A stretch of DNA of 64,000 nt, taken from NCBI RefSeq assembly GCF_002128425.1, contig NZ_NESS01000003.1, positions 372,001 through 436,000 on the forward strand. The letters are read 5' to 3'. The position numbers and the translations under genes were made by a program. The notes under the pieces were generated by a model. The model did no database searches. It was not told where the DNA came from and worked only from the letters and a program-made list of their open reading frames with translations. Shown piece by piece: positions 6,354 through 59,735 of the stretch. Each line of letters opens with the position of its first letter. Position 1 is the first letter of the stretch. This DNA is from Gottfriedia acidiceleris. GTDB taxonomy: Bacteria; Bacillota; Bacilli; Bacillales; Bacillaceae_G.

Positions 6354-9300
6354 TTATTGAATACCTAACTCACTCTTAATCACATCAATTGTCTTACCTT
6401 TTGATTTCTTCACTGGTTTTGGAGCATTGTCTACTGCTGGATTTTGCATTAAGAAATTCTTTTCTACATAAGAAAAATCTTTTGCGTCAACTGTTCCGTC
6501 AAAGTTAATATCAGCTGAGCGTTTATTTGTTCCCCAATAAGTTTCAATTGCTAGAGCGTCATTAACATCAATTACATTGTCCTTATTGATATCTCCAGCA
6601 GTAGCAACAGCAACGCTTTCTGTACCGATTCGATCACTGATACCATACATGAAACCATCCATAATACTGTATGCATTTTCAAACGTACCAGATGTTGTAA
6701 AGTGACCTGGAATATCAGTGATTACAGTAAATTCATCGGTAGTAACAGGTAATCCAGATACATAAAATTGTCCTCTAGTATCCATTATTGCATTATATGA
6801 TTTACCTTTACTATCTACAATCGTTACATTTGCTCCAATTTTCGTAAAATCTATTGGAAGAAGTGTACCATCTGCTCTTTGGAAGCTTTCTGGGTGAATA
6901 TAACTAATTACACTCGAGATATTTGGTAAAATGGCGATTGGTGCTAAATAAGTAAATGGTTTTGTCACTGTATTATCTACACTTGTGAATGCCGAAGTAA
7001 CATTGTTAAAGCTAGAGATAGGTATCGGATCTGCCAGTTCTGGAATTTTAATCGTTACATCAACCATTGGTAGATCTCCCGATACCTCTTTTGAACCATC
7101 AAATGTAATGTTGATATCTGATTTAACAGTTGTACTTGTTGGATTTGTCGTTGTAACGTTCATTTGTCCACCAAGCTTTTGTGCCTCAGGATTTAATGCA
7201 ATATTTACGATATTTGTATCAGTAGTTTTCGTTGTAAAGCTAAATCCTGCTTGCTTTAATTTGTTCACATTATTAGCATTTAGTGTAATCGTATTTGTAT
7301 CGCCAGGGTGTGTAATTAATCGATTATTTCTTGTTTTTGCTTGTGGTTGACCATAAACATATTGAGTTCCCTCTTTAACAAAAAGATATTGCTTATCACC
7401 ATAAGTATTCGTTGCTTGGTCTCCACCGATGAATCGGAATGATAGCATTGATAAGCTTGGATCCATTGCAATTTCATCTTGAGCATTTCCATTTTCATCT
7501 AATGTAAGTTTTCCGGATAACCAAGGACTATTATAAAAATATCCAATTGTATTTTGCGACTGATCTGCTTTCATACCTGCTGCCTTCATTAACTCAATTG
7601 ACTTGTCATTAATCGAAGCAGTAAACGGAACAGACTTTTGGTCTGCCTTATATTCGATAAATGGATTTCCTTCTTTTTCTCCATCCACTTTTACATCAAA
7701 TTTATTTGGCATTGTATTATCGACTAAAAGATCTTGTGAAATTGTATATGCTTTACCTGCATCATCATACCCAATTAGTTTTATTTTGTATAATCCTTCT
7801 TTTGCTAAAACAGGTTTTGAACTAACTGGATTACTTGGGTCACCTGTAAATGGATAATAGGCTCCAATAGATGCTGCAATTGTGTATTCTACACCCTCAT
7901 CATAAGCCACACCATCGAATGTATTTGTAATACCTAAATCCTGGCCTGTCACCGCATCGGTAAATACTACATCAATGTTTCTCATATGAGACTTTAACGT
8001 GAATTTAGCCGTTAAATATGGATAAAATAATGGGCTAGCTAAAGAATTTCTGTCAGTAGACATTGACTGACGAGTAAGGTTCAACGAATTGAATCCTTTT
8101 TCTACATAATGTACACCAAAGGGAATACGATAACTTTCAGATGAATTATCTTTGTTTATATAAGTTACATAACCTTCATAAATTCCCTTGTCCGCTGTCT
8201 TTGGAATATTTAAAGTAATATTTGTTTTCTTTTGACTAACTCCTTTTAAAGTCACTGATGAAGGAGCTTGTACTGTAACACCGTTTGCTACTGCATCCTT
8301 TGAGCCTCGAAGCCCTGTTTGGAAACTTACTTTCACATCAAATGTTTTCGTTTTTTCTCCCCTATTCATCAGCGTAACAGAGCGTGAATCAGAATAATCT
8401 TTGTTATCGAATGATACGTTTCCGAAGCTAAGTGCCCCAGTTTCTTCATTGATTTGTTTTTCTCTTCCGTTAACAATCATTGGTGTTTTTTCTTGGACTT
8501 TAATTTCGATTGTTGAGTGAATTGCATTGTATGGATCAATTCGTCCTGCACCTTGCTCAAACACGCTGTATGGTTTACTTAATGAATCAGCTGTATTCAT
8601 CAAAATCGCTTTTATATCTTCTGGTTGTAAATTATGGTTAGCTTGTTTTAATAATGTCGCAACTCCAGTTGTAAACGGCGTAGCCATAGATGTACCTGAC
8701 ATACGTTGATATGCATTTTTATAATCTGACGGGTTATCTGGGTTGTTTATATAGCCCGGTACTGTTGATAATACACTCACACCTGGAGCCGTAATTTCTG
8801 GCTTAATATCATATGTTAATCTTGCAGGTCCTCTTGAACTGAAATCAGCTAACGTATCACCTTGCGTTTTTACTTCACCAATGTCAGAGAACGTAAAGTT
8901 ATCCGAACCTGATTGAAGTTTTTGTTTTAAAGCTAAGCCTTCTGCATTTGATAATGTGAATGATGGAATGAAGTTAGCTCCTTCTCCAAAGTAGGTTGGG
9001 ATTAATCCTTCCGCTGGATTATCATTGTACATTAGGACTGCAGCCGCACCTTGCGATTTTGCTACTGCAATTTTAGAATCCATCGTATAAGTTCCACGAC
9101 TCATAAGGACAATCTTGCCCTTTACATCTTTACCAGTATAAGCTTCTCCTAGATTCACATCTACGACTGGTAACGTTTGTCCTTTAAATTTAGAAATATC
9201 ATCTCCGTACCCTCTTGCCATTAAGCGTAAATTAGCTAAAGCATTGTCAATCGAACCTTTCGCTGACACTGTCGTAATTGGAACATCACTTGCTCCAACT

Positions 9301-24495: not shown

Positions 24496-24890
24496 TATTA
24501 CTCCTCCTAAATTAGCAATCTATTTATTTTAACTAAATAGTAAATGTAAATAGATCAAACTTTTTGATGAAAACTACTATAATCTTTCCATTATGTATTG
24601 GTTTATCTTTTTTTCTAAAAATAATTAATATTTAAAAATTATCTATTATACTATTACACACTAAATTTACTGTCAATATTGAAAATGAATCATCACTGTT
24701 CAACTAAAAGTTCAATTTTAACTAGAGCTTTCATTCTATCACTCTAGTTAAATTAACCCAAAAAAACTTCATACTTTATCCTCATAGAGACACGGTTGAT
24801 ATTTAATTTGATTAAATGTAATATATTAATTGATAATCCTGCAGGTTATTATTTCCAATTTTACCATTTTTTACCATAAACATACTATAG
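24496..24890. other. Noncoding region upstream of the riboswitch
   Basis: AT-rich. The one notable structure is a perfect inverted repeat ATTTAACTAGAG / CTCTAGTTAAAT (about 24716-24753) with a 14-base loop and no T-run. It could be an operator or a structured RNA. Nothing coding was seen. Confidence 0.4.
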
Positions 24891-24957
24891 CTCGTATATA
24901 CCCAAAAATATGGTCTGGGTGTCTCTACCTAATTCCCGATAAGAATTAGACTACGAG
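24891..24957 (+). ncRNA. Purine riboswitch aptamer, guanine class
   Basis: P1 is CTCGTA (24891-24896) pairing with TACGAG (24952-24957). P2 is ACCCAAA with TCTGGGT, carrying one A-C mismatch, with loop L2 AATATGG. J2/3 is GTCTCTACC. P3 is TAATTC/GAATTA with loop CCGATAA, whose CC can pair with the GG of L2. The J3/1 segment GACTA has C at the position equivalent to xpt C74, which specifies guanine/hypoxanthine rather than adenine. L3 departs from the common CCGTAAA. It lies 294 bases upstream of the dGTPase-like gene, on the same strand. Confidence 0.88.
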
Positions 24958-25135
24958 GTAAATTTTACTTTATTAGTATAAGAAGCTGATTTTAATGAAG
25001 GATCACTGTGTGCCTTTGAACATATAATTTACTTTTAAATATTCTATTTATTTTAGATTATTTAAATGTAAGTTTTTCATAGTCCATTTAAAAGACAATA
25101 AATGTCTGCCTTTAAAAACTTCAACTTTTTTTGCG
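24958..25135 (+). other. Long riboswitch-to-terminator spacer
   Basis: 178 bases with no gene. It contains a weak hairpin AAGTTTTT / AAAAACTT (about 25070-25120) with an inner AGACA/TGTCT stem and followed by TTTTTTT (about 25127). That hairpin is an alternative terminator closer to the aptamer. Confidence 0.4.
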
Positions 25136-25197
25136 AACCAAGATAAAGTAGGACTTATCTCTTAGTAGAGAATACGTCCTACTTTATCTTGGTTTTT
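25136..25197 (+). terminator. Strong leader terminator upstream of the dGTPase-like gene
   Basis: A perfect 19-bp stem: positions 25136-25154 (AACCAAGATAAAGTAGGAC) pair with 25176-25194, followed by TTTTT. It ends 53 bases before the start codon at 25251. Together with the upstream guanine-class aptamer, this is the likely switch point for transcription of the operon. Confidence 0.85.
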
Positions 25198-25250
25198 TAT
25201 GTCACTTAAATGTTTTCTTAAATTAAAGTTTATAGAAGGGGTTTATTGAT

Positions 25251-26483
25251 ATGTATAAGGCCATGTATCATACTTTTGACCACCTAAGATTAACTGACAA
25301 TCAAACGCAAGAAGGTAATATTGCGTTCTTACATGACTTTAATGCAGTTTTAGAATCTCCCCACTTAAAAAAATTAGCAAAAAAAACACAGTTAATTCCC
25401 AACTCAGAAATATGCCATAATCGTTTATCACATACTGTTGATGTTTGCCATGTTTCAAGTTTAATCGTGGAACATCTTAATAATTGTTTTCGAGAGAATA
25501 ACATTGCACCTATAAATAAAGATTTAGTAAAGGCTATTAGTCTTGCTCATGATATTGGTCATCCACCATTTGGACATACCGGTGAACGAGCGCTAGATCA
25601 ATTGATGAAAAAAATGGGTGGATTTGAATCAAATGCACAGAGCGTTAAAATTTTAGTAAACAGTTCGAATGATTATAAATATAGAACCCTCGCAGCTTTA
25701 ATGAAATACAAAACGAAAATTCCTTTAGTAAGAGAAAAATATAACGGTTTAATCAAAGGGTATTATGGATATATGTCTAATCATTTAGAGCCTATATTAT
25801 TGAAATACCAAGAAGATGTCATTGAGCAATCTATCGTAGATATAGCAGATACATTATCTTATGCTCTATCAGATCTTAAAGATTTATTACTATTTTATGG
25901 AGAAAATAGATTTGCTCAATTACTTAACAGATATTTTACTGAAAATGCAATGCTTGAGGAAACTATGCTTTTCTTCCCTGAAATTAGTAAATCGAAATTA
26001 CTTTATTTCATTCCAAAAATTATGGAAGAAATTAAAAATAATATACTTGGGGAAATTTTACAAAATTACGGTAAGTTAGTATCGGAACCACTACAATCTA
26101 TTATTCACGGATTTATAGATACATTAGTGATCAAGATAAACTATGCACAGCCAATGTATAGTACATTGAACCTTTCAATAGAAAATGAATTAAAACTTTT
26201 TCTATTAAATCAAATTACGAAGAAATGTTTCTTAGAAAGAAAAGTTAATAGAGAAATAGATAAAAAGATTACTCATAATATACAACTCACCTACGATTAT
26301 CTTTTTAACTTAAATAGTGAGGATTCTTTGCTAAATGTAGATAAAGAAGTTTTACAAAAATTAATCAATATCTCTAACCATATTGAGCGTTCACGTTTTG
26401 TTTGTGACGTAATGTGTCACTTATGCGATATGGAGATTGTGAATTTCGTAAGTAATTACAATAAAAAAATAATTGTAGTTTAA
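25251..26483 (+). CDS. dGTPase-like HD-domain triphosphohydrolase
   Basis: A 410-residue protein of the deoxyguanosinetriphosphate triphosphohydrolase family. Conserved elements are NRLSHTVDV (His61), SLAHDIGHPPFGHTGE (His100, Asp101), GFESNAQSVKIL and the distal metal ligand in VDIADTLSYAL (about 197-200), which together make a complete H..HD..D site. Family members cut dGTP to deoxyguanosine and tripolyphosphate. It is the first gene after a guanine-class riboswitch and leader terminator, and is followed 14 bases later by a P450 gene. A housekeeping dGTPase usually stands alone, so this copy may serve a specialised purine pathway (inference). Confidence 0.85.
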   Translation: MYKAMYHTFDHLRLTDNQTQEGNIAFLHDFNAVLESPHLKKLAKKTQLIPNSEICHNRLSHTVDVCHVSSLIVEHLNNCFRENNIAPINKDLVKAISLAHDIGHPPFGHTGERALDQLMKKMGGFESNAQSVKILVNSSNDYKYRTLAALMKYKTKIPLVREKYNGLIKGYYGYMSNHLEPILLKYQEDVIEQSIVDIADTLSYALSDLKDLLLFYGENRFAQLLNRYFTENAMLEETMLFFPEISKSKLLYFIPKIMEEIKNNILGEILQNYGKLVSEPLQSIIHGFIDTLVIKINYAQPMYSTLNLSIENELKLFLLNQITKKCFLERKVNREIDKKITHNIQLTYDYLFNLNSEDSLLNVDKEVLQKLINISNHIERSRFVCDVMCHLCDMEIVNFVSNYNKKIIVV

Positions 26484-26497
26484 CAGGAGGAAATCAA

Positions 26498-27754
26498 ATG
26501 AGTATAAATGTAAAACAATCTGTCGAGCAGTTCAGTTTAAATAGTAAAGAGTATTATGAAAACAGATACGAATTATATGAAAGATTAAGAAATGATGCAC
26601 CTGTTTTTTGGCATGAAGAAATGAATTCCTGGTTTATCACTAGGTATGAGGATGTGTCCAAGAATTTACTTGGAGATAAATTTATTTCAAGTAATGTAAT
26701 TCCGAATAAAATGAGTAATCTTGCTGAAGGAGAAGATCAACATTTTAAGGATATAATCGATATCATTAAGACTTGGATGGTCTACAATGATCGCCCAGTC
26801 CATTCACAATTAAAAGGTTATATGAACAGAGCCTTTTTAGTTAATGAAATCGAACTTATTGCTCCTGAAATTCAGAAAATTGTTTCTACAATTGTAGATA
26901 AAGTCCTTGAAAAAAACACTAGTTCATTTGATTTTGTAAAAGAAATCGCACACCCTATTCCTGCGATGGTTCTTTGTAAAATGCTAGGAATTCCTGGTGA
27001 AGAAGTTGACAGATTCATTAAGTGGTCTGATGATATCGCATTATTTATGCAGGATTTCGTTGTGTCCCATGTTCCTAGTAAAGAAATTAGTGAACAAGTT
27101 AGAGGAAGTGTAAGAGAAATTTGGACATATCTTTCAGATGCGATTGCGGAAAGACGAAAAGAAAAGAAGAATGATTTATTAAGTAGGTTAATCTCTGAGA
27201 CTCCTGGTGAAGATGGTGAACTTACTGATGATCAATTAATTGCTCAAACAATGCACTTAATATTCGGTGGGCATAAAATTCCTCAATTTGTGTTAAGTAA
27301 TACATTACATCTTCTATTTAAGAATCAAGATGTTCTAGAAATGCTTAAAAAAGATATGTCCCTTCTTCCAAAAGTATTAGATGAAACAATGAGACTAGAA
27401 GGACCAATCCAATATATTGTTAGACATGCTTCAAATGATATTGAATTACATGGACAGCAAATCAAGAAAAATGATTCTGTTTATTTCTTTTTAGCTTCTG
27501 CTGGCCGAGATGAGCGAGTATTTCCAAATCCAGACAAAATGGATATAAGTAGAACAGGTTTCCGCCATGTAGCTTTCGGTGGAGGTTATCATACTTGTAT
27601 AGCTGCAGCTTTTGCTCGTGTAGAGATCATGGAAATTCTTAAAGAAGTAATAACTCGTTTTCCAACGATTGAGTCATTATATGATTTAGAAAATCCAGAG
27701 TGGACTACAAACCCTACTTTCACTGGAATGATCCAGATGCAAGTAAAAATCTAA
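26498..27754 (+). CDS. Atypical cytochrome P450
   Basis: A 418-residue soluble bacterial P450. Heme-binding loop FGGGYHTCIAAAFARVE with Cys367; ExxR pair Glu296-Arg299 (ETMR). The I-helix reads FGGHKIPQF (about 257-264) where most bacterial P450s have AGHETT: Lys260, Ile261 and Pro262 replace the acid and both Thr residues used for oxygen activation. The Gly two residues after the heme Cys is Ala. It may therefore use peroxide, do unusual chemistry, or bind rather than oxidise. It starts after AGGAGG, in tight linkage with the dGTPase-like gene. The substrate is unknown. Confidence 0.9.
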   Translation: MSINVKQSVEQFSLNSKEYYENRYELYERLRNDAPVFWHEEMNSWFITRYEDVSKNLLGDKFISSNVIPNKMSNLAEGEDQHFKDIIDIIKTWMVYNDRPVHSQLKGYMNRAFLVNEIELIAPEIQKIVSTIVDKVLEKNTSSFDFVKEIAHPIPAMVLCKMLGIPGEEVDRFIKWSDDIALFMQDFVVSHVPSKEISEQVRGSVREIWTYLSDAIAERRKEKKNDLLSRLISETPGEDGELTDDQLIAQTMHLIFGGHKIPQFVLSNTLHLLFKNQDVLEMLKKDMSLLPKVLDETMRLEGPIQYIVRHASNDIELHGQQIKKNDSVYFFLASAGRDERVFPNPDKMDISRTGFRHVAFGGGYHTCIAAAFARVEIMEILKEVITRFPTIESLYDLENPEWTTNPTFTGMIQMQVKI

Positions 27755-27780
27755 TATTAAACGATATTTAGGGTTAAAAG

Positions 27781-27814
27781 ATAGGGATAGAAAATTCTAT
27801 TCCTATTTTTTCTA
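27781..27814 (+). terminator. Internal terminator within the riboswitch operon
   Basis: ATAGGGATAG pairs with CTATTCCTAT (one G-T pair), followed by TTTTTT. It sits between the P450 and the hydrolase genes, so downstream genes depend on read-through or a second promoter. Confidence 0.7.
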
Positions 27815-27833
27815 AGTTAGAGGTGATTAAAAA

Positions 27834-28472
27834 TTGAATAACTGCGAATTTCATAATACCACCATTTTAGTTGTTCACGAAATTTATGGAATTAACAGTC
27901 ATATAAAAGATATTTGTAACGATTTAAAAAAGTTAGGTTTTACTGTTGTATGTCCAACTTTATTAGGTAATATAGAGAACTATTGCTATAAAGATGAAAA
28001 CAAGGCTTATAAGCATTTTGTTCATGAGATTGGGTTCGAGTTAGCTACTGACAAAGTAATAACACTTGCAAAAGAACTTCGAACTAAGTGTGCTAATTTG
28101 TATATTTTGGGGTTTAGTGTAGGTGCAACGGTTGCGTGGTTATGCAGTAAATATGACGGGTTATTTGATGGAGTAATTGGATTTTATGGTTCGAGAATTA
28201 GGGACTACTTAGAGGTTAGTCCAAAATGTGAGACCTTATTAATTTTCCCAACGAAAGAAAAATCATTTGATCCTGAAAGTGTCGTAATTAAATTGAAAAC
28301 AAAAGATAGGATTCAAATCATTAAAGTAGAAGGAAGTCATGGTTTTACCGATCAATCAACTTCTTATTATGATCGGTATGCTACTGAGTATTGTTTTCAA
28401 AAAATGCTAGATTTTATTATGAAACAACATCATCAAAAATATAATTTTTCCGAAACGGGAGGAATCAAATGA
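27834..28472 (+). CDS. Dienelactone-hydrolase-like alpha/beta hydrolase
   Basis: A 212-residue alpha/beta hydrolase resembling the dienelactone hydrolase family (ILVVHEIYGINSHIKD near the N-terminus, the DLH hallmark). The nucleophile elbow is GFSVGA, with Ser in place of the Cys of classical DLH, and the catalytic His is in EGSHGFTD. It starts at a TTG after AGAGGTG. Its stop overlaps the MFS transporter start by 4 bases (ATGA), so the two are co-translated. It likely hydrolyses an ester or lactone made or imported by this operon. The substrate is not known. Confidence 0.8.
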   Translation: MNNCEFHNTTILVVHEIYGINSHIKDICNDLKKLGFTVVCPTLLGNIENYCYKDENKAYKHFVHEIGFELATDKVITLAKELRTKCANLYILGFSVGATVAWLCSKYDGLFDGVIGFYGSRIRDYLEVSPKCETLLIFPTKEKSFDPESVVIKLKTKDRIQIIKVEGSHGFTDQSTSYYDRYATEYCFQKMLDFIMKQHHQKYNFSETGGIK

Positions 28473-29665
28473 CCGATCAAAGATGGATGTCTTTACAGTT
28501 TTTTGGGTTTTTCTTCACTTTCGGAATTTTCGTGCCTTATTGGTCTGCTTGGCTAACAACAAGTAAAGGTTTTACAGCTGATGAAGCTGGACTAATCATT
28601 GCTTTAGGATTAATTACAAGGTCAATAACTACCTTTTTTATTTTTCCATTTATAAGTAGATACCTAAATTTAGCAAGATTAAATCAAATAGTTTCCTTAA
28701 TTTCTATTACGCTATTAATCATATTAATACCGTTTAATAGTTTAATTGCTGTAGCTTTCATTACAGTTTTATTAAGCCTAGCTTATCCAATGCCTTTAGC
28801 TATGTATGAGGCTATGGCATCTATTCTTATTAGGGAAAGCAAAATAGAGTATGGAAAGAGTAGATCATATGGTTCTATTGGCTATATTATTTCTCTATTA
28901 TTAACTGGAATACTCATATCTTTAAAAAGTGAAAACGTAGTTATTTACTTTTTGATTATTGGATGTGTTCTACTTTCTTTTATTACATCCATTAACGCTC
29001 CTTTACCTTTAAAAATAAAAATAACATCAAAGAAAGTACCATTGTTTAAATTGTTTAAATCAAAAGGATTTTTATTAGTATTAACAATCTGCATCACGCT
29101 TCAAGCTGCACATGCAGCATATTATAGTTATGCTGTGCTTTTTTTGAAAAATATTGGGGTAAAAACTAGTTTTACAGGCTTCATCTTAATCATTGCAGTA
29201 ATATCAGAAATTGCTTTCTTCTATATATCAGACTCTCTATTTAAAAGACGGTCTGTTCCAGTTTTATTAATATTTAGTGTAAGTGCTTCCATATTAAGAT
29301 GGGTATTGATTTTTTCTTTTAACAACATTTCAGTTTTTGTATTGTCTCAATTTTTACATTCTATTACTTTTGGGCTTACTCAATATGCCTTTGTGAAATA
29401 TTTAGATGAAAATATTGAAAATAAGTATTTCCCCTTTGCTCATGGAATTTATGCAGCTCTAGGCTTAAGTTTAGGTAGTGGTATTTTAACATTAGTAAGT
29501 GGTTACCTCTACTCTATATCTCCATCTTTTGCTTTTTTAGGTATGGCATTAGTCTGTATCCCCTGTTTAGGATTGTGTTACTTTTTGAAATTAACATTAG
29601 GGGACAAAAATAACTTAATAGGAGAGATAAGTGAAAATGTTACTAGTAAACGAAAAAGTGTATAG
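28469..29665 (+). CDS. MFS transporter (phenylpropionate-permease-like)
   Basis: A 398-residue membrane protein with about 12 helices. Its N-terminal SLQFFGFFFTFGIFVPYWSA resembles the MFS_1-like/PPP subgroup that includes HcaT and some nucleoside or sugar permeases. It overlaps the upstream hydrolase by 4 bases and the downstream unknown gene by 35 bases. The start follows GGGAGG by six bases. It could import a precursor or export the product of the cluster; direction cannot be judged from sequence. Confidence 0.85.
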   Translation: MTDQRWMSLQFFGFFFTFGIFVPYWSAWLTTSKGFTADEAGLIIALGLITRSITTFFIFPFISRYLNLARLNQIVSLISITLLIILIPFNSLIAVAFITVLLSLAYPMPLAMYEAMASILIRESKIEYGKSRSYGSIGYIISLLLTGILISLKSENVVIYFLIIGCVLLSFITSINAPLPLKIKITSKKVPLFKLFKSKGFLLVLTICITLQAAHAAYYSYAVLFLKNIGVKTSFTGFILIIAVISEIAFFYISDSLFKRRSVPVLLIFSVSASILRWVLIFSFNNISVFVLSQFLHSITFGLTQYAFVKYLDENIENKYFPFAHGIYAALGLSLGSGILTLVSGYLYSISPSFAFLGMALVCIPCLGLCYFLKLTLGDKNNLIGEISENVTSKRKSV

Positions 29666-30062
29666 TACAATCAAGTCTGTAAAATCTGATGAAACAATCC
29701 GTACAGATGTATTTCAAATGAATGAAGAAAAAGTGATTAAGTTGAAATTTTTGAGTTCAAGTTCTCCTAGAAATCAAGGTATCTGTTTTATATCAGAAAA
29801 TGGAATAACGATGAACGATGCTGCAAAACAAAAAACAATCATTATATGGAAAAGTGAGATTCTATCAGATCTTATCTTAAAATGCTCTAGTGGCTTTTTA
29901 AATGTTTTTAATGTGTGGGAAGAAGAACGAATGGTGGGATTCCATGATTTTCAGTCTGGTATGAGAATCAAAAAAGAAAATGATGAATTGATTTACAGTT
30001 GTAATGATGCTTTTGCAAATGGTGATTTTACCTCTTTAGTATTCTCTCTTCAAATAGTATAA
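29631..30062 (+). CDS. Unknown protein, last gene of the riboswitch operon
   Basis: A 143-residue protein with no recognisable family. It lacks signal peptide and membrane helices and is predicted beta-rich, with several Cys and Trp residues in the second half (LKCSSGFLNVFNVWEEE). I use the GTG at 29631, six bases after GGAG; an ATG two codons on is also possible. It overlaps the transporter end by 35 bases, so it is translationally coupled, and an operon terminator follows at 30101. It could be a binding or accessory protein. Confidence 0.65.
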   Translation: MKMLLVNEKVYSTIKSVKSDETIRTDVFQMNEEKVIKLKFLSSSSPRNQGICFISENGITMNDAAKQKTIIIWKSEILSDLILKCSSGFLNVFNVWEEERMVGFHDFQSGMRIKKENDELIYSCNDAFANGDFTSLVFSLQIV

Positions 30063-30268: not shown

Positions 30269-30733
30269 ATGACTGAAGATTTTTTTGCTGATTATGAAAA
30301 GTTTGTTGTTCCACCTATATATCAATATAAAGTTGAAAAACAAAATTTTAATCCTAAAGACTACGCTTCGTATTACATCTTAACAGTCTCATTATATGAC
30401 TCTCTTATATCAAATTGGAACGATGCTGCTAAATATAAAATTGACGTCCTTAGCTGTATAGATTACGTATTAAATGATTTTAATGAAAAAAAAGAGGGGA
30501 AATATCATCTTCAATTACTTGAATTCGAGAGTGATAAATCATATTTTGTCATAGCCTTGTCTATAAAAAATAAAATTGAAAAAGAAAAAATCAATGGAAT
30601 TATATCAAAGTATATTGAACAACTAGTATCAAACTCCTTTTACATTGGACAGAGCTGGTACTGGCTAATTGGTCAAAAAGGGAAAAGAGACCGAAAACTC
30701 TTCAATATATCAATAAAGGAATACACGCACTAG
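30269..30733 (+). CDS. Unknown soluble protein
   Basis: A 154-residue, Lys/Tyr-rich, cytosolic-looking protein that I do not recognise. It starts with ATG after AAAGCAGG. Secondary structure looks mixed, with a YKIDVLSCIDYVLNDFNEK helix and a C-terminal FYIGQSWYWLIGQKGKRDRK segment rich in aromatics. It has its own upstream region after the operon terminator and no gene downstream for over a kilobase. Codon use is like that of its neighbours. No function is proposed. Confidence 0.6.
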   Translation: MTEDFFADYEKFVVPPIYQYKVEKQNFNPKDYASYYILTVSLYDSLISNWNDAAKYKIDVLSCIDYVLNDFNEKKEGKYHLQLLEFESDKSYFVIALSIKNKIEKEKINGIISKYIEQLVSNSFYIGQSWYWLIGQKGKRDRKLFNISIKEYTH

Positions 30734-59460: not shown

Positions 59461-59735
59461 AAAAAGGCATATCATCACTTCCTCCATAATCAAATGAAGA
59501 AAGAGACGATATGCCTTAAGCTTACCGCGGTACCACTCTTATTGGCTCTTTTTTGAACCCTACTTTAAAAACCTTGTAACGAAGGTCAATCGTTAAAACA
59601 AAAGAATAGATTAAAGCTAATCTTCCGCTTTACCACTCCCAGGCAAGTTCAAAGTATCATTGGACTGCGTTCCACCAACCCGCAGCTCTCTTTACCGAAT
59701 AATTATCTTTTACTACTCCTGATCTTTGCGTTTTG
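59461..59735 (-). ncRNA. T-box riboswitch leader, probable Leu (CUU) specifier
   Basis: Minus-strand leader of the permease gene. Stem I opens at CAGGAGTAGT and closes at CCTGGGAGT, with GAGAGCTGCGGGT and GGTGGAACGCAGT in its apical part. The specifier loop 3' side reads GAACTTG: after the loop E GAA the triplet is CTT, followed by a purine. The T-box sequence is AAGAGTGGTACCGCGG. The terminator pairs AAGGCATATCGTC with GATGATATGCCTT and then TTTTTT. Genes with this leader are turned on by uncharged tRNA. Confidence 0.88.

Follow-up and report, generated by a model that had tools for sequence, protein, structure and literature searches.

A guanine-class riboswitch aptamer precedes a recurrent cytochrome P450 gene cassette in Gottfriedia acidiceleris

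With regard to described systems that resemble the locus studied here, a five-gene operon behind a guanine-class purine riboswitch aptamer in a 64,000-nucleotide stretch of Gottfriedia acidiceleris DNA (contig NZ_NESS01000003.1, positions 372,001 to 436,000; hereafter the window), some information can be taken from two nucleoside gene sets. The Photorhabdus operon adgA-E, for 3'-amino-3'-deoxyguanosine, is likewise a five-gene purine-nucleoside operon with a proposed major facilitator superfamily (MFS) exporter and a proposed step that removes phosphate from a guanine nucleotide, while it differs in being related to puromycin genes (PMC9239236). The main text on adgA-E makes no mention of a P450, a hydrolase or an HD domain, and no riboswitch is seen in the passages on this operon, none having been looked for specifically (PMC9239236). 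In the oxsA/oxsB system, phosphorylated oxetanocin A is the substrate of the HD phosphohydrolase OxsA (PMC8177086), and the likeness lies in an HD-domain enzyme, which in that system takes phosphate off a modified deoxynucleotide, whereas the ring-contracting partner OxsB is a radical S-adenosylmethionine (radical-SAM) protein (PMC8177086, PMC7074753). The operon lacks the radical-SAM partner that would mark an oxetanocin-type pathway, a scan of its five genes having returned no match to a radical-SAM family; none of the 19 PDB sequence matches found for the window's HD protein bears the name OxsA.

Two further comparisons concern single components. The HD protein shares the H...HD...D and GHxxE motifs with bacterial deoxynucleoside triphosphate (dNTP)/dGTP triphosphohydrolases (TIGR01353; PDB 2dqb), but differs from them in that the cassette proteins carry an invariant GFESNAQ where the single aligned PDB relative has GFEGNAQ, that the window protein scores below the curated cut-off (141.4 versus 152.35 bits) and that its gene is located in a P450 operon. 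The xpt-pbuX type represents the guanine OFF mechanism of riboswitches, and the window leader is alike in its canonical aptamer core and in the competition of terminator and antiterminator; in contrast, it would govern a P450 cassette rather than purine synthesis or transport genes, and its terminator begins 160 nt after the Rfam match.

In the current study, computational analysis revealed the parts of this operon, their recurrence in other hosts, an OFF-switch architecture, a purine-nucleoside phosphorylase neighbour in one genome, and a P450 with an unusual motif and strong constraint. The arrangement is more widely conserved than the reading of a single window could show. We propose, at a probability of roughly 0.45, that the operon may encode a compact pathway for a guanine-type nucleoside whose product is probably secreted. 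The literature search found no description of this gene set.

Recurrence of the cassette and architecture of its leader

The operon consists of five open reading frames (ORFs) on the forward strand behind an aptamer and a terminator, encoding an HD-domain protein, a cytochrome P450, a protein of the dienelactone hydrolase (DLH) family, an MFS carrier and ORF5; the last three overlap (DLH/MFS by 4 nt, MFS/ORF5 by approximately 30 nt), in agreement with the five same-strand genes, three of them overlapping, that an earlier sequence-only reading had described. The aptamer (24872..24973, +) is, as that reading had stated, complete and of guanine type: its match to RF00167 is full-length and scores 82.1 bits (gathering score 37; E 3.3e-13 for the whole window), and the Rfam alignment contains the three-way junction and a J3/1 segment, GACTA, with C at position 24951. 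A C in J3/1 is the guanine-type base, while guanine and 2'-deoxyguanosine aptamers differ at a position of J2/3, where U denotes the guanine class; the window carries the corresponding combination of GACTA and TCTCTACC. GACTA is carried by all 14 aligned cassette aptamers.

The intrinsic terminator of the leader (25133..25194, +) folds at -35.3 kcal/mol with 19 outer pairs and an inner hairpin, followed by a T run, which bears out the 19-bp terminator noticed previously. Its 5' half doubles as the 3' strand of an antiterminator whose 5' strand (24951..24976, +) starts within the 3' strand of aptamer helix P1, and in the window this duplex reaches -21.1 kcal/mol, a value equalled by 0 of 1000 shuffles of either strand. 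A terminator and a competing duplex were found in all 14 leaders examined; across the 14 aligned leaders the duplex between the terminator 5' half and the 26 nt that start within the P1 3' strand has an energy of -15.6 to -21.1 kcal/mol, and in six representative leaders between 0 and 9 of 1000 simple shuffles of either strand equalled the native pairing. By eye, the pairing tracks sequence change between hosts (GAGGUAA/UUAUCUC in Gottfriedia, GAGAUAA/UUAUCUC in Rossellomorea, GAGAAG/CUUCUC in the B. pumilus group and CGAGUGAAA/UUUCACUCG in genome G137). Since the P1 3' strand is able to pair with the terminator 5' half, guanine should turn the operon OFF: bound guanine would hold P1, the terminator would be freed and the operon would be stopped.

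A P450-led scan of genome contigs, which relies on short exact peptides and may miss distant relatives, returned 15 loci among 95 candidate stretches. Identity to the window P450 is 98-99% in five records of Gottfriedia or related 'Bacillus sp.', 82% in Rossellomorea sp. and Bacillus sp. RO3, 81-82% in B. xiamenensis, B. pumilus and B. safensis, 65-67% in two Paenibacillus, 58% in Amycolatopsis rifamycinica and 54% in two Photorhabdus. In whole-genome searches at E 1e-90, 11 of the 397 genomes searched from the order, counting that of the window, contained the P450, as did one of 398 genomes of a phylum sample, this being the window's own; at E 1e-60 it was present in two of 12 genomes of the genus to which the P. 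thracensis genome belongs, and it was not found in the viral contigs searched or, at the same threshold, in plasmids. The P450 is a rare and patchy trait, and the gene set around it is horizontally spread. As most loci were found via the P450, its presence there is by construction; a search led by the HD protein gave matches in 14 of 199 genomes, and the P450 adjoins nine of the ten matches of at least 38% identity, the contig of the tenth ending before the P450 position. Four further HD matches (32-37%) were left out, the cassette P450 being absent from the short stretches fetched.

Cassette anatomy, as deduced from tblastn and ORF lists, varies around a common order. The complete set HD-P450-DLH-MFS-ORF5 is found in Gottfriedia and G099, HD-P450-DLH-MFS in Rossellomorea, RO3, G137 and G300; B. 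xiamenensis, B. pumilus and B. safensis lack HD and have P450-DLH-MFS-ORF5. In one Paenibacillus locus (L034, 3433-9396) an APH-family kinase and an MFS gene, the kinase overlapping the MFS start, precede HD-P450-DLH-Cupin_5, and it is possible that the kinase (scanned for in this locus alone) and the Cupin_5 protein provide self-protection or additional steps. In Amycolatopsis the order is purine-nucleoside phosphorylase-HD-P450-DLH-MFS. Two Photorhabdus genomes hold the order in pieces: in P. tasmaniensis HD and P450 are followed by the contig end, while in P. thracensis the P450 is accompanied by short frames for DLH and MFS and by one of 136 aa which, to the eye, corresponds to the end of the other HD protein. 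The recurrence of the HD-P450-hydrolase set in Gottfriedia, Rossellomorea, Paenibacillus and Amycolatopsis disposes of the possibility, raised in the sequence-only reading, that related genomes lack it, and the hosts in which HD, P450 and DLH are clustered (in Photorhabdus as the pieces just described) span three phyla, going by the taxonomy of the named hosts. Identity of the P450 correlates with that of HD (r 0.94; 78 pairs, 13 loci) and of DLH (r 0.88; 66 pairs, 12 loci), values inflated by closely related loci and in keeping with what would be expected if the three genes travel together.

Some loci show signs of decay or disruption. In Paenibacillus planticolens (L033) the MFS frame is shorter and the P450 is interrupted, an in-frame stop breaking its frame (6989-8251). 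In G137 and G300 (L056, L057) the HD gene is shortened and is separated from the P450 by genes that by eye resemble insertion sequences and that differ between the two genomes. Genome G012 (L085) has no P450 match at E 1e-90 and retains an inverted 216-bp P450 remnant between an acyl-CoA synthetase-like gene and a homologue of ORF6, the same flanking genes, so that the operon has been lost at this site at least once; in G008 and G001, more distant genomes of the genus that lack the P450, none of the tested window neighbours accompanies the ORF6 homologue in the 12 kb inspected.

The association with purine aptamers, which the earlier reading had suggested looking for in other genomes, was confirmed in 18 of 23 cassette loci (27 loci were scanned and the four HD-only ones left out; some genomes are counted twice, by name and by G handle, and L027, whose contig begins inside HD, was omitted). 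Aptamer and gene set occur together in five kinds of Bacillota host, namely Gottfriedia, Rossellomorea, G099, G137/G300 (92.5 bits in G300) and the B. pumilus group; in the last of these, HD being missing, the aptamer lies directly 5' of the P450. The five loci without an aptamer belong to Amycolatopsis, to both Paenibacillus and to both Photorhabdus; lenient scans of the upstream part of L034 and L035 did not yield a purine match either. Genome-wide scans of Amycolatopsis and of P. tasmaniensis (150 of 615 first-look candidates scored in the latter) found no purine aptamer, so its absence from the cassette says little in these two hosts.

The P450 and its partner enzymes

The cassette core gene (26498..27754, +) encodes a cytochrome P450 by family match (PF00067, E 4e-31), heme-ligand Cys367 in FGGGYHTC and the ExxR residues E296-R299. 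Its helix I lacks the acid-alcohol pair of canonical oxygen-activating P450s and has K260-I261-P262 there instead, K260-I261 aligning gap-free to E-T in the ETT-type segment of the three solved P450s shown. The surrounding GGHKIPQF is found in all 20 P450 copies compared (18 of them distinct; in L033 and L048 a stop was taken as X). Since some P450s are known without an acid-alcohol pair, the motif is best taken as a marker of atypical P450 chemistry that does not identify which. The CYP152 peroxygenases have a basic residue and a proline near the acid-alcohol position of other P450s, as does the cassette P450, which differs in having K-I-P there.

The ratio of non-synonymous to synonymous substitution (dN/dS) of the P450 is 0.033, 0.025, 0.044 and 0.040 against L023, L024, L025 and L026, relatives at the same chromosomal place. 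For the other cassette genes in these comparisons it amounts to 0.18-0.25 (HD), 0.19-0.25 (DLH), 0.10-0.14 (MFS) and 0.22-0.26 (ORF5), and for the flanking genes to 0.09-0.11 (acyl-CoA synthetase-like) and 0.08-0.09 (a helix-turn-helix (HTH) gene, three of the four relatives). With the more distant L053 the P450 value is 0.10 and with L055 it is 0.06, still the lowest among cassette genes, the flanking HTH gene lying below it in L053 (0.086). The P450 is the most constrained gene of the cassette.

The HD protein (25251..26483, +; PF01966, E 6.6e-11) had been called a dGTPase in the sequence-only reading. What holds of this label is the family motif, H61, H100, D101 and D200 together with H109 and E112 of GHxxE being invariant in 13 of 13 alignment rows from seven lineages, and the naming of structural relatives, the name dNTP or dGTP triphosphohydrolase being carried by 17 of the 19 PDB matches found for the window protein and by all 17 of those found for Paenibacillus HD. 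The window protein stays under the curated cut-off, as noted above, and among its relatives the Paenibacillus orthologue exceeds the TIGR01353 cut-off (169.2 bits) while that of Amycolatopsis falls short of it (115.6 bits); to judge from sequence, the label is one of family resemblance.

The DLH-family alpha/beta hydrolase (27834..28472, +) scores 73.3 bits against a Pfam gathering score of 21 (PF01738, E 2.8e-20), and its gene starts at a TTG with a good ribosome site upstream. The dienelactone hydrolase enzyme uses a Cys nucleophile, and the single aligned PDB relative has Cys (GFCWGG); the window protein has Ser95 (GFSVGAT) at this place, and His169. The carrier gene (28469..29665, +) encodes an MFS protein of MFS_1_like, HcaT-like and nucleoside-H+-symporter-like type (PF12832, E 1.7e-46; PF03825, E 4.9e-10). 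ORF5 (29637..30062, +), present in Gottfriedia, G099 and the B. pumilus group, is a predicted all-beta protein without a Pfam family, for which the ATG at 29637 is a likelier start than the GTG at 29631.

Proposed pathway and competing explanations

When guanine is scarce, the leader would form the antiterminator and the operon would be read. The HD enzyme would strip triphosphate from a guanine or deoxyguanine nucleotide, the P450 would act on the nucleoside or base, oxidising or rearranging it by chemistry that is substrate-assisted or otherwise non-standard, the ester or lactone so formed would be opened by the DLH-family enzyme, and the carrier would export a nucleoside-type small molecule; in this scheme we infer the ligand response, the identity of the substrates, the order of the steps, the secretion and the bioactivity of the product. 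A more specific form, which we consider doubtful, is a nucleoside natural product induced by guanine starvation and made by a P450 of a new mechanistic type, in which the helix I lysine may hold an anionic group of the substrate (phosphate or carboxylate) at the heme, so that the substrate itself stands in for the missing acid-alcohol pair, the HD enzyme may supply the P450 from the dGTP pool, the DLH-family enzyme may open a lactone or ester arising from oxidation of the sugar, and the riboswitch may let guanine, the parent base, signal whether the product is needed by the cell or affordable to it.

The reading of the operon as one of guanine or deoxyguanosine metabolism, put forward previously, is partly supported, two supports and one objection having been added. 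The supports are the recurrence of the aptamer and the gene directly upstream of HD in Amycolatopsis, which matches the purine-nucleoside phosphorylase model NF006054 (224.7 bits, cut-off 218), is below the cut-offs of the other phosphorylase models matched and is an extra copy, another of 45% identity being located elsewhere in the genome; this is a single observation in one genome. The objection is the absence of HD from the B. pumilus-group cassettes, in which a dGTPase is consequently no indispensable in-cassette step; a search for a protein of this kind gave a 24% partial match in one of these genomes, which was seen under two handles, while two others had no match at E 1e-5.

Several further points weigh against the proposal of a secreted product. 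The predicted OFF response to guanine suits salvage at least as easily as production, repression by guanine being typical of genes for salvage and uptake, and the families to which the Bacillaceae carrier belongs are rich in importers. Of the 11 purine aptamer matches in the window's own genome, seven of the ten others, as inspected, precede ordinary purine genes (a phosphoribosyltransferase, purE-type, guaA-type, three permeases and a nucleoside phosphorylase). At the Paenibacillus cassettes an aptamer was looked for and not found, although the L034 genome carries three elsewhere. In a cross-lineage control four of six leaders paired equally well or better with the partner of another lineage, the own partner being clearly best only in G137 and narrowly so in the window. 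A redox partner is absent among the five operon genes.

The main rival, which we regard as somewhat unlikely, is salvage, whereby the carrier would import a guanine-containing compound, for example a modified purine or an unusual nucleoside, the P450 and DLH-family enzyme would open it, guanine would be recovered and its feedback would close the system. The switch is predicted to be of the same OFF type as at the salvage and permease genes of this genome, the carrier is akin to nucleoside-H+ symporters and HcaT, and the Amycolatopsis phosphorylase would release guanine. However, the use of an imported nucleoside needs no dNTP triphosphohydrolase, and a patchy spread (11 of 397 genomes of the order) with a loss is more usual for specialised traits. 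The carrier type also differs by host, being HcaT/nucleoside-symporter-like in Bacillaceae, nearest to Bcr/CflA efflux in Paenibacillus and nearest to DHA2 efflux in Amycolatopsis, the latter two far below curated cut-offs and with weaker PunC and UriT (nucleoside transporter) matches as well; this variation makes it appear as if the cassette requires a carrier, whatever its kind. On balance, a secreted nucleoside-type product is preferred to salvage.

A substrate unrelated to purines (a fatty acid, aromatic compound or peptide), with the riboswitch merely linking the pathway to nutritional state, is distinctly unlikely. The best curated match of the MFS protein is the 3-phenylpropionate transporter model NF008346 (235.9 bits, cut-off 259) and among NCBIfam models the P450 scores best with one for a cyclodipeptide-associated subfamily (178.3 bits, cut-off 500), as such a substrate might suggest; the dGTPase-kind residues kept throughout the HD alignment and the additional phosphorylase in Amycolatopsis argue otherwise. 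Antiphage or nucleotide-pool defence, in which HD would deplete dGTP and the other genes would be accessory, is very improbable: the PADLOC model for dGTPase does hit the HD protein (177.8 bits, E 1e-52) and ORF5 gives a faint Cas7f-type match (E 5e-5), but no PADLOC model matches the P450, DLH or MFS protein, the constrained gene is the P450 rather than HD, which the B. pumilus group lacks, and the cassette P450 was not found in the viral contigs or plasmids mentioned above. Chance juxtaposition of an aptamer and unrelated genes can be dismissed, since the gene set recurs behind the aptamer in several lineages, including the B. pumilus group without HD.

The locus joins a textbook RNA switch to an uncharacterised, horizontally spread set of enzymes. 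Purifying selection on the central P450 of this set is unusually strong, although the standard oxygen-activation residues are missing from it. If the proposal of a secreted nucleoside product is true, the operon would offer a route to a new metabolite of this type and to new P450 chemistry, with guanine limitation as a natural on-switch for finding the product; the operon is small and occurs in easily grown soil Bacillales.

Other features of the window

The gap between the P450 and DLH genes (27755..27833, +) folds into an AT-rich hairpin followed by a T run, a candidate internal attenuator. A hairpin with a T run was seen in this gap in the six Gottfriedia loci folded (L023-L026, L053 and L055, the T run of L055 being short); it was absent from the output of the consensus scan and unseen in L028-L031. 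It is possible that such an attenuator sets expression of DLH-MFS-ORF5 below that of HD-P450.

A 154-aa gene lies 3' of the operon (30269-30733) and has no Pfam family; matches to it occur in 12 of 13 genomes of the genus, and as these include genomes without the P450 it is probably not a member of the cassette. Elsewhere in the window, a T-box leader is located at 59499-59735 on the reverse strand (121 bits).

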